The notes below the pieces were generated by a model. The model had not been told where the DNA came from. It was given only the letters and a program-made list of their open reading frames with translations, and did not search any database. From the NCBI GenBank assembly GCA_963169045.1, contig CAUJDF010000011.1, positions 62,001 through 126,000 on the forward strand: a DNA stretch of 64,000 bases. The letters run 5' to 3'. The translations under genes and the position numbers were made by a program. Every line of letters begins with the position of its first letter. The first letter of the stretch is position 1. Shown here in pieces: positions 32,196 through 42,074 of this stretch. Source of the DNA: Myxococcota bacterium (GTDB lineage: Bacteria; Myxococcota_A; Bradymonadia; UBA7976; UBA1532).

Positions 32196-32539
32196 TCCGG
32201 CTGCTGCTGGCGCTCGCGCTGGCCGCGCCGCCCACGCTCGGCGACGCGCTGCGCGCCATCGGCGCCTTCGACGCGCCGCCGCCCGGTCTCGACACGAGCC
32301 TGACGCCGCCCCCGCCGCCGCCGCGCATCGGCGCGAAGATCCTGATCGGCAGCGGCGCCGCGCTCTTCCTCACCGGGCTCGCCGGGACGATCTTCAGCCC
32401 GTACTGCGCGACGAAGAGCGCCGACGGCCGCTGCGTCGACGCCCGCGGCGCCCACCCCGCCTTCCCCGCGCTGATGGTCGCCGGGCTCGCCGCCGCGATC
32501 ACCGGGAGCGCCTGGTTCCGCGAGGACGTCAGCCCGTAG
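32192..32539 (+). CDS. Small membrane protein, unknown function
   Basis: 115 residues. TTG 32192 overlaps the upstream stop by four bases and opens a signal-like hydrophobic stretch (LLLALALAAPP). A Pro-rich linker (PPPPPPR) follows, then two hydrophobic helices ('ILIGSGAALFLTGLAGTI' and 'ALMVAGLAAAITGSA') separated by a loop with two cysteines. Its 3' end overlaps the convergent gene by 11 bases. Similar Pro-linker-plus-two-helix tails occur in the TPR/PEGA protein of this window. Confidence 0.65.
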   Translation: MIRLLLALALAAPPTLGDALRAIGAFDAPPPGLDTSLTPPPPPPRIGAKILIGSGAALFLTGLAGTIFSPYCATKSADGRCVDARGAHPAFPALMVAGLAAAITGSAWFREDVSP

Positions 32540-32843
32540 CGTCGTCGTCGCGGGCGCCGGCCAGGAAGCCTTCGAGGAACCGGATGCGCTCGAGGGTCGT
32601 GTCGTAGCGCGAGGGCGGCGACGGCGCCGGCACGAGGCCCAGCGCCGTGCCGGCGGCCCACAGGCAGAGGATGGCGCCGAGCAGGGCGGCGCCCACCGGG
32701 CCCTTCCACGAGAGCACGACGAGGGCGCCGCCGAGCAGGCCGGGGACGACCGAATAGAAGACGCGTCCGCTCCGCGCGCGCGCGGCGCGCAGCGTCTCGA
32801 GCTCCGCGCGGGCCTCGGCGACGGTCTGTGGATCGTGGGTCAA
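32529..32843 (-). CDS. Small two-helix membrane protein of the phosphatase operon
   Basis: 104 residues from TTG 32843, which overlaps the stop of the phosphatase hybrid by four bases (TTGA). An N-terminal helix ('TVAEARAELETLRAARARSG') is followed by two membrane helices ('FYSVVPGLLGGALVVLSW' and 'AALLGAILCLWAAGTALGLV') and a short charged tail. No family recognised. As the last gene after FIST and the kinase-phosphatase hybrid it may localise that complex to the membrane, an inference from position only. Confidence 0.65.
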   Translation of the reverse strand: MTHDPQTVAEARAELETLRAARARSGRVFYSVVPGLLGGALVVLSWKGPVGAALLGAILCLWAAGTALGLVPAPSPPSRYDTTLERIRFLEGFLAGARDDDATG

Positions 32844-40215: not shown

Positions 40216-40713
40216 ATGCAGGACTTCCGCTTCTCGATCGACGTCCCCGTCCGCAATCAGTGGGCCGACATCGAGCGCCTGCGGGCGTCGGTGCAGAACT
40301 GTCTGATGGCGGTGTTCACCGACGTCGGCGGGGTGAACGCGCTGGCGATGGTGACGGGCGAACTGCTCGAAAACGCGGTGAAATACGGGCATTGGGGCAG
40401 CGACGGCGGCGTGTTCCGGCTGCGGGTGTCCGGCGACCGCCGGCAGGCGGCGGTGACGGTCGAGAACCCGGTGGACGACGGCGCCGAGGGCCCGGCGCGG
40501 GTCGAAGCGACGCTGCGCTGGCTCGGCCGCTTCCAGGACGCGGGCGCGGCGTACCAGGCGCGGCTGCTCGAGGTGGCGGCGGCGCCGCGCGGCACGTCCG
40601 GCGGCCTCGGGCTCGCGCGCGTGGCCTACGAGGGCGGCTGCCGGCTGCGCGCCGAGCGGGCGCCGAACACGCTGCGCGTCACCGCCGAGTGGACGTTCGA
40701 GGCCGGCGCTTGA
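40216..40713 (+). CDS. GHKL (anti-sigma/SiaB-type) serine kinase
   Basis: 165 residues, a single HATPase-fold domain with no HisKA part. N-box 'GELLENAVKYGHWG' (Asn53), a shortened ATP lid, and 'TSGGLGLARVAYEGG' are visible. Stand-alone GHKL proteins of this size act as RsbW/SpoIIAB-type anti-sigma factors or as SiaB-type kinases that phosphorylate the paired STAS/SiaC protein. It starts 3 nt after the SiaC-like gene and its stop overlaps the FHA regulator (TTGA), placing all three in one unit. Which target it holds (sigma factor or other) is unknown; no sigma factor is encoded nearby. Confidence 0.75.
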   Translation: MQDFRFSIDVPVRNQWADIERLRASVQNCLMAVFTDVGGVNALAMVTGELLENAVKYGHWGSDGGVFRLRVSGDRRQAAVTVENPVDDGAEGPARVEATLRWLGRFQDAGAAYQARLLEVAAAPRGTSGGLGLARVAYEGGCRLRAERAPNTLRVTAEWTFEAGA

Positions 40714-42074
40714 GCGACGTCACCGAGACGATCGACGCGTCGCACGTGCCCGGCGCCGGCGGACCGGCCGGCGCGCCCGTGCCCGGCGTGCTGCTCGTGT
40801 TCTCGGGGCACGAGCCGCTCGGCGGCTGCATCCCGCTGCGCGACGGCGCCGTCGAGCTCGGCCGGGGCGCCGTCGGCGGCGTGCTGATCGAGGACGGCCG
40901 CATGTCGCGCCGGCACGCCCGCGTCGCGCGCGCCCGCGGCGTCTGGACGGTCACCGACCTCGGCAGCCGCAACGGCACGCTCGTCGACGGCCAGGCGGTG
41001 AGCGGCGAGGTGTCGGGCGCGGCGCTGCGGCTCGTGCGGCTCGGCGACTCGATCTTCGTGTTGTGCGACGACCTGCGGCCGTTCCAGGCGCGCCACGTCG
41101 AGGTCGGGCCCGCGCTGGTCGCCGGCGCCACGCTGCGCGGCGCCTGGGACGACATCGAGCGCGCCGCGAGGTTCGGCGACGTGCTGCACGTGACCGGCGA
41201 GAGCGGCAGCGGCAAGGAGCTGGCGGCGCGCGCCTTCCACCAGATGGGGCCGCGCCCGGGCGGGCCGTTCGTGGCCGTGAACTGCGCCGCGATCCCCGAG
41301 GGCGTGGCCGAGCGCCTGCTGTTCGGCGCGCGCAAGGGCGCGTACTCCGGGGCGGCCGCCGACGCCGAGGGCTACGTGCAGGCGGCCGACGGCGGCACGC
41401 TCTTCCTCGACGAGGTGGGCGAGCTCGAGCCCGGCGTCCAGGCCAAGCTGCTGCGTGTGCTCGAGACGCGCGAGGTGCTCGCGCTCGGGGCCAGCCGGCC
41501 GACGCGCGTCGACGTGCGCCTCTGCTCGGCGACCCATCGCTCGCTGCGGACGCTCGTCGCCGAGAAGCGCTTCCGCGAGGACCTGTACTTCCGGCTCGGC
41601 CGGCCGCAGGTCGACCTGCCGCCGCTGCGCGAGCGTGCGGAGGAGATCCCGTACCTGATCGACCGCGAGGTGCGGCGCGTCGACGGGGCGCTCGGTGTGC
41701 ATGCCTCGCTCGTCGAGGCTTGTCTCTTGCGCCACTGGCCGGGCAACGTGCGCGAGCTGGCGGCCGAGGTGAGGGACGCGGCGCGGGCCGCGCTCGTGGC
41801 CGGTGCCACCGTCGTCGATGTGTCGCGGCTGAGCGCCCACGCCGGCCAGCCGATCGGGGCGGAACCGCCGCCGGCGAGTCAGTCCGTGGCGCTGCCATCG
41901 AGAGAGGTGATCGAGGAGGCGTTGCGCGCCGCGGACGGCCGCGTCGCCACCGCCGCACGCGCGCTGCATCTGCACCGCACCCAGCTCCGTCGCTGGCTGG
42001 CGCGGCACGGGATCGATCCGCGGTCTTTCTCGTCGGACCCGCGCCAGGCGGAGGCGCCCGAGGATCTCATCTGA
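40710..42074 (+). CDS. FHA-domain AAA+ enhancer-binding transcription regulator
   Basis: 454 residues from TTG 40710, inside the previous stop. Residues ~35-110 form an FHA domain ('ELGRGAVGG', 'MSRRHARVARA', 'DLGSRNGTLVDG') which binds phosphothreonine. The AAA+ centre (~135-360) has Walker A 'GESGSGKE', Walker B 'GGTLFLDEVGEL' and arginine finger region 'RFREDLYFRLG', and the C-terminus is a Fis-type HTH ('VATAARALHLHRTQLRRWL'). The sigma-54 contact loop reads GAYSGA, not GAFTGA, so sigma-54 activation is possible but weakened. The FHA domain offers a direct link to the Ser/Thr kinase encoded just upstream. Confidence 0.9.
   Translation: MSDVTETIDASHVPGAGGPAGAPVPGVLLVFSGHEPLGGCIPLRDGAVELGRGAVGGVLIEDGRMSRRHARVARARGVWTVTDLGSRNGTLVDGQAVSGEVSGAALRLVRLGDSIFVLCDDLRPFQARHVEVGPALVAGATLRGAWDDIERAARFGDVLHVTGESGSGKELAARAFHQMGPRPGGPFVAVNCAAIPEGVAERLLFGARKGAYSGAAADAEGYVQAADGGTLFLDEVGELEPGVQAKLLRVLETREVLALGASRPTRVDVRLCSATHRSLRTLVAEKRFREDLYFRLGRPQVDLPPLRERAEEIPYLIDREVRRVDGALGVHASLVEACLLRHWPGNVRELAAEVRDAARAALVAGATVVDVSRLSAHAGQPIGAEPPPASQSVALPSREVIEEALRAADGRVATAARALHLHRTQLRRWLARHGIDPRSFSSDPRQAEAPEDLI

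Follow-up and report, generated by a model that had tools for sequence, protein, structure and literature searches.

Two divergently transcribed operons in a 64,000-nucleotide stretch of a Myxococcota bacterium genome (assembly GCA_963169045.1, contig CAUJDF010000011.1, positions 62,001 to 126,000; hereafter the window, whose numbering is used for its features) probably constitute a single signalling system, built around a partner switch of the SiaC/SpoIIAA type that would control a giant Hanks kinase and/or an FHA-containing sigma-54 activator. A gap of 107 bp (36142-36248) separates the two operons. On the minus strand they encode, in order, a FIST sensor, a hybrid protein with HisKA, HATPase, receiver and SpoIIE domains and a small hydrophobic protein, and on the plus strand a Hanks kinase-AAA_16 giant, a STAS-like switch protein, a GHKL kinase and an FHA-sigma54 activator. 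Sequence and structure together show what these parts are, that they are linked in operons, that the two central proteins have folds of the SiaC/STAS and SiaB/SpoIIAB types and that the linkage recurs elsewhere; the catalytic motifs are intact in all the enzymes of the island, apart from the GHKL G1 box. A preliminary description of this DNA had proposed two diverging units with all of the named parts, and Pfam profile searches recovered the FIST, HisKA, HATPase, receiver, SpoIIE, Pkinase, AAA_16 and FHA domains, while profile and fold comparisons agree on its partner-switch core of SpoIIE phosphatase, GHKL kinase and SiaC/STAS target.

A divergent switch protein and its GHKL partner

The 124-aa product of 39838..40212 (+) is, judging from its modelled fold, a SiaC/STAS-type switch protein, as the preliminary description had supposed. 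Pfam returned no significant match for this protein alone (STAS E 0.2), and its identity was settled by its relatives and by fold comparison. Its best match in NCBIfam is slr1659_superfam, of the NF047705/NF047703 pair (E 3.7e-5, 24 bits against a cut-off of 100 bits), a family matched by all 30 switch proteins considered (that of the window and 29 relatives), 23 of which also match STAS and 18, weakly (best 3e-4), SiaC PF09345. The AlphaFold2 model (predicted local distance difference test score, pLDDT, 95; predicted template-modelling score 0.86) finds its closest counterpart in the PDB by Foldseek in the SiaC chain of the SiaB-SiaC complex (6kko_C, E 9.8e-6), with SpoIIAA and RsbV coming next. 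A search of PDB sequences with the switch profile gave no true match, so that membership in SiaC is unsupported by sequence alone, and neither the switch nor the GHKL protein of the window matched the SiaC (PF09345/NF038265) or SiaB (NF038262) families. By family, both appear to be divergent members of the slr1659/slr1658 superfamilies.

SiaC is phosphorylated on Thr68 in the motif LNTSSIK (PMC7647112). Aligned by hhalign with two SiaC proteins that belong to bona fide Sia operons in the phylum, the switch profile places HFNSST on YFNSSS (E 3.6e-5), and Ser71 of the former aligns with Thr68 of SiaC, as the first residue of a predicted helix (71-86, the start of helix 2). Residue 71 is serine in all 53 aligned sequences, whereas Thr73 varies; 31 of the loci were collected with a pattern that itself contains the motif, but the serine is also kept in those obtained independently of it, namely a further 20 loci and L076, which were obtained through a protein profile or through gene neighbourhood. 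Ser71 is thereby the predicted phosphoacceptor of the switch.

Immediately downstream, 40216..40713 (+) encodes a 165-aa GHKL protein (HATPase_c_2, 2e-5) resembling SiaB and SpoIIAB. Its best NCBIfam match is slr1658_superfam (1.3e-6, 28 bits against a cut-off of 100 bits), which all 21 kinase relatives match, and its AlphaFold2 model (pLDDT 92) retrieves SpoIIAB, RsbW, SiaB (6kko_B, TM 0.69) and the Leptospira protein LvrC in Foldseek. The N-box (ELLENAVKYG) and G2 box (GGLGL) are recognizable, while ENP stands where the G1 motif DxGxG is expected. We considered and dropped the possibility that this loss disables the kinase: the SiaB-family protein of locus L184, which scores above the curated cut-off, also lacks the motif, with GN at the G1 position, and its following helix has a Tyr and an Arg in common with the window protein. 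The missing aspartate is therefore better understood as a SiaB-like trait than as the sign of a dead enzyme, and the GHKL protein would act as the kinase of the switch protein, in that direction.

These comparisons also bear on the possibility of an ordinary anti-sigma switch of the RsbW/SpoIIAB type, with the GHKL protein sequestering a sigma factor. SpoIIAB and RsbW are indeed the top structural matches of the GHKL model, and SpoIIAA and RsbV come close behind SiaC for the switch protein. However, the family models point to slr1658/slr1659, and for some relatives to SiaB/SiaC; the helical insertion with its conserved Tyr and Arg, together with the missing G1 box, is common to SiaB; and no sigma-70-type gene lies in the neighbourhood scanned. 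We accordingly hold an anti-sigma switch to be improbable. Separately, bona fide SiaB-SiaC-GGDEF operons do exist in a Myxococcota genome (G062, loci L184 and L187), that of L187 also with a SpoIIE phosphatase.

A FIST sensor gene beside that of a histidine kinase-phosphatase hybrid

The minus-strand operon opens with a 397-aa FIST protein (34948..36141; FIST_N 5.1e-40, FIST_C 1.2e-21). With 49 bits against the 450-bit cut-off of NF041558, the model for the nitric oxide sensor NosP, it is not NosP by score, but it adjoins a histidine kinase gene, as NosP genes do. That gene (32840..34951, minus strand) encodes the 703-aa hybrid, in which Pfam detects HisKA (5e-16), HATPase_c (9e-31), Response_reg (1e-26) and SpoIIE/PP2C (1e-30) domains and whose motifs are intact from the H-box SHELRTP and the receiver SDVQMP to the PP2C signatures GGDLYDL, ADAIGHG, FTDGLAE and ADDITAVGV. 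Its GTG start overlaps the FIST stop codon by 4 nucleotides. A mechanically called open reading frame (ORF) at 32529-34514 was rejected as lying in the wrong frame: the true hybrid runs from 34951 to 32840, and 32529..32843 (minus strand) is a separate gene, by gene call and translation, for a small hydrophobic protein of 104 aa. This gene overlaps the hybrid stop by 4 nucleotides and is possibly the third of the operon; its product matched no family in the profile search.

The preliminary description had envisaged FIST ligand binding and a His-Asp relay setting the phosphatase. That FIST feeds into the phosphatase is supported by the overlap of the two genes in this operon, by the operons of L076 and L180 described below and by the NosP-NosK precedent; FIST would act on the histidine kinase half of the hybrid.

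The kinase giant and the FHA-sigma54 activator

The first plus-strand gene (36249..39806) encodes a giant of 1185 aa with Hanks kinase (Pkinase, 2.5e-43), AAA_16 (5e-29) and helical-repeat parts, whose motifs HRDLKPPN, DFGL and Walker A GASGMGKT are intact. Its start was chosen from the alignment of orthologs, an earlier ATG at 36168 being an alternative outside their coverage. Of the kinase-AAA-TPR architecture first ascribed to it, Pfam confirms the kinase and AAA_16; over the C-terminal 600 aa it gives no significant match and no TPR, although a relative in L180 carries TPR_CHK1 in the corresponding region.

The last gene (40710..42074, +) begins with TTG, in a 4-nucleotide overlap with the GHKL stop; its identity is supported by Pfam matches on ORF 39909-42074, by its motifs and by the orthologs of L025 and L026. 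Its 454-aa product is a sigma-54 enhancer-binding protein that combines an FHA domain (2e-10), a sigma54-interacting AAA+ domain (Sigma54_activat, 4e-53) and a Fis-type HTH (HTH_8, 1e-6), as FHA-type sigma-54 activators do, with the FHA residues GR, SRRH and SRNGT, the Walker A and B motifs and a GAYSGA variant loop in place. Among the most speculative elements of our proposal is that this FHA domain might read phosphothreonine made by the giant, an idea suggested by the intact residues and by the linkage of both genes in three genomes.

A paralog of the giant, 57% identical, lies elsewhere in the same genome (L079, 6565-12986), followed by a globin gene and then a sigma-54 activator, without switch genes. 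This set supports a link between such giants and sigma-54 activators that is independent of the switch. As an observation in its own right, it is possibly a haem-sensing sister module.

Recurrence of the linkage and what it decides

The association on which the preliminary description depended does recur in other genomes, as seen in 52 distinct loci, each taken with the switch gene at its centre. A GHKL gene is adjacent in 36 of them and within 5 kb in 40; a SpoIIE phosphatase lies within 5 kb in 25, against about 0.5% expected by chance from the counts in the window's genome; and a Hanks kinase lies within 5 kb in 14, in 10 of the 52 abutting on the same strand (p ~3e-6 against an assumed base rate of 3%). 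The switch family itself is patchy, being found in 30 of 379 genomes of the phylum, with weak matches only in the window's own family.

The most telling loci are those in which parts of the island are reshuffled. In L025 and L026, from two other metagenome-assembled genomes, the plus-strand set is reordered yet linked, as FHA activator, giant, STAS and GHKL, and the activators are 57-60% identical to that of the window (449-463 bits against 211 for the next best in their genomes). L026 further has a convergent gene whose product joins GAF-PAS input to a SpoIIE domain 55% identical to that of the window, which indicates a phosphatase with a conserved catalytic domain and an exchanged input; in the genome of L025 the ortholog of this protein sits on a different contig. 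In that same genome, L076 is a compact operon of FIST, SpoIIE, STAS and GHKL with overlapping gene ends, and is an independent case linking FIST to this type of switch. Elsewhere the domains are fused: L052 and L131, from two genomes, encode kinase-AAA_16-GAF-SpoIIE proteins followed by GHKL and STAS, and L180, from the genome of L052, encodes a kinase-AAA_16-TPR-GAF-SpoIIE protein followed by a receiver (REC), FIST and a histidine kinase (HK)-REC-Hpt protein. L138 and L140 have receiver-SpoIIE proteins beside their switch genes. A variant cluster at L035, L037-L039 and L041 consists of two diverging switch genes with SpoIIE and a GHKL gene, and with a methyltransferase-like protein where this was scanned (L035, L038).

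Such loci make it very improbable that two unrelated systems, one an operon of FIST and a two-component phosphatase, the other an operon of a Hanks kinase and a partner switch, came to lie back to back by chance. Their divergent rather than co-directional arrangement might suggest as much, as might the commonness of FIST-histidine kinase pairs in the phylum (a histidine-kinase match lies beside FIST in 12 of 30 FIST loci, a SpoIIE match in 3) and the presence of more than 100 Hanks kinases per genome. Against this stand the base rates, since the 9.0-Mb genome of the window holds 4 SpoIIE genes, 3 FIST genes and 1 switch gene of the slr1659-like family, on which a SpoIIE gene would fall within ~7 kb of the switch gene in ~0.5% of cases and a FIST gene likewise, so that the observed proximity exceeds chance. 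We reject chance proximity on these grounds and because FIST, SpoIIE, STAS and GHKL share a single operon at L076, the plus-strand four-gene set has the orthologous SpoIIE as a neighbour at L026, and L180 groups FIST, HK, REC, kinase-AAA_16 and SpoIIE.

The same loci leave more room for a switch that is real but whose output lies elsewhere, in a sigma/anti-sigma pair, a diguanylate cyclase or another target in trans, with the giant as an input and the FHA activator as a separately wired neighbour; the giant might then serve as an additional sensor-scaffold for the control of SpoIIE activity, or might itself phosphorylate the switch protein. In L052, L131 and L180 the kinase-AAA_16 is the N-terminal portion of a SpoIIE protein, the usual place of a sensory input; L076 has input and switch without a linked output; and the true SiaB-SiaC operons of the phylum drive a GGDEF protein. 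Yet the FHA activator stays linked to giant, STAS and GHKL in three genomes despite reordering, the orthologs there being by far the best matches, and no sigma-70-type sigma factor or GGDEF gene occurs among the annotated neighbours in the window. An output elsewhere thus appears unlikely to us, if by no means far-fetched, and the giant may be both output and input if it integrates a second signal.

Several observations weigh against a single system with the giant or the FHA activator as its output. The full six-gene set is joined in the window and was found in no other genome, and FIST occurs near switch genes in 1 of the 52 other loci and the FHA activator in 2. Two paralogs of the giant, that of L079 and a second Hanks kinase-AAA_16 protein of the same subfamily at 52917-56492 (minus strand; 44% identical over its length), have no switch genes among their scanned neighbours, so that such a giant can act without a switch. 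A sigma-54 promoter scan of the divergent intergenic region (36142..36248) found nothing above the GC-rich background and no convincing site between the operons. The protein distances of switch, GHKL and SpoIIE co-vary (r 0.82, 0.54 and 0.61), but this mirror-tree correlation is confounded by species relatedness. Finally, the canonical G1 aspartate is missing from the GHKL protein, though, as noted, the SiaB-family protein of L184 lacks it too.

Proposed mechanism and implications

In the single system that we favour, FIST would bind a small ligand and modulate the histidine kinase part of the hybrid; this part would phosphorylate the adjacent receiver, and the receiver would set SpoIIE activity. 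Ser71 of the switch protein would receive its phosphate from the GHKL protein and be dephosphorylated by the hybrid's SpoIIE domain. These input steps, from FIST to phospho-Ser71, follow the known families and the linked genes. The phosphorylation state of the switch protein would in turn set its choice of partner, through which it would control the co-transcribed giant and/or the FHA activator, and the output of these would change sigma-54-dependent transcription. For the output steps it is gene linkage that points the way, and the identification of the giant or the FHA activator as the output of the switch is, with FHA recognition of the giant's product, the most speculative part of the scheme. 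Its strongest form, in which a SiaC-type switch set by FIST and a histidine kinase directly toggles a Hanks-kinase/FHA-sigma54-activator pair, with His-Asp, GHKL-Ser and Hanks-Thr phosphorylation converging on sigma-54 transcription, we offer tentatively, as possible rather than probable.

The known targets of partner switches are mainly sigma factors, anti-sigma factors and diguanylate cyclases, and to our knowledge a Hanks-kinase/FHA-sigma54 pair has not been described as their output. If the proposal is true, a recurrent cassette that couples a SiaC-like switch with a receiver-gated phosphatase, a FIST sensor, a Hanks kinase and an FHA-sigma54 activator would join three bacterial phosphorylation chemistries in one circuit. 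It would also suggest a function for the poorly understood slr1658/slr1659 pair of regulators, and a role for a number of the orphan Hanks kinases in which myxobacteria abound.

Neighbouring genes in the window

On the low-coordinate side of the island, 30405-32195 (+) encodes a 596-aa protein with several CxxC pairs, weak zinc-ribbon matches and no confident family, and a glycolytic gap-pgk-tpi operon lies nearby at 24011-27037 (minus strand). The FHA activator adjoins a gene for a phosphodiester glycosidase (NAGPA) protein with S-layer homology repeats (42192-43964, minus strand), beyond which 45046-47238 (+) encodes a Transglutaminase-elicitor domain with proprotein-convertase P-domains.

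Comparison with known systems

Among the closest known systems is SiaABC(D) of Pseudomonas aeruginosa (PMC7647112, PMC8457831), which has the same core of SpoIIE phosphatase, GHKL kinase and STAS-like phosphoprotein and to which the island is further tied by the structural match to SiaC, the position of Ser71 at Thr68 and a GHKL protein without the G1 motif DxGxG, as in a SiaB-family protein. The island differs in that its proteins fall far below the SiaB/SiaC family sequence cut-offs, that its input is a FIST protein with a histidine kinase-receiver rather than the membrane sensor of Sia, and that it is linked to the giant and the FHA-sigma54 activator; a SiaD-type GGDEF output, present in the true Sia operons of L184 and L187, is absent from the annotated neighbours in the window. 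With slr1658/slr1659 of Synechocystis (NF047703/NF047705) the island shares the adjacency of the two genes and a family signature found throughout the relatives, the window proteins themselves scoring under the 100-bit cut-offs. According to work cited in PMC7555055, a slr1658 mutant is affected in recovery from iron starvation and in pgr5 expression.

On the input side, the two-component-gated partner switches HsbR-HsbA and CrsR-CrsA (PMC6482189) offer a parallel to the scheme proposed here, with a receiver-containing PP2C that acts on a STAS protein. The island departs from them in that one protein combines histidine kinase and receiver-PP2C, in the FIST gene upstream and in a GHKL kinase with a gene of its own. 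That a FIST protein can serve as an auxiliary sensor and regulate the histidine kinase encoded beside it has been shown for NosP-NosK (PMC12570481), and as in NosP-NosK and NosP-NahK the FIST gene immediately precedes that of a cytosolic histidine kinase with no sensor of its own; in contrast, the FIST protein of the island is far from the NosP model, and its output would be a PP2C acting on a STAS protein rather than cyclic di-GMP turnover. Parts of a study of Sorangium cellulosum (PMC2887360) report some SpoIIE phosphatase genes near Hanks or GHKL kinase genes and STAS domains that can be fused to Hanks kinases, and these parts mention no FIST, histidine kinase, FHA-sigma54 set or recurrent cassette.

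A literature search, with subscription papers outside its reach, found no description of the combination, nor of any cassette in which a SiaC-like switch accompanies an FHA-sigma54 activator. The earlier remark that no described system has this combination stands, since the complete six-gene set was not found in another genome, while its sub-modules are of known kinds. The island is a new arrangement of modules known from SiaABC, slr1658/1659, HsbR-HsbA, NosP-NosK, the FHA-type sigma-54 activators and the kinase-linked SpoIIE and STAS proteins of Sorangium.

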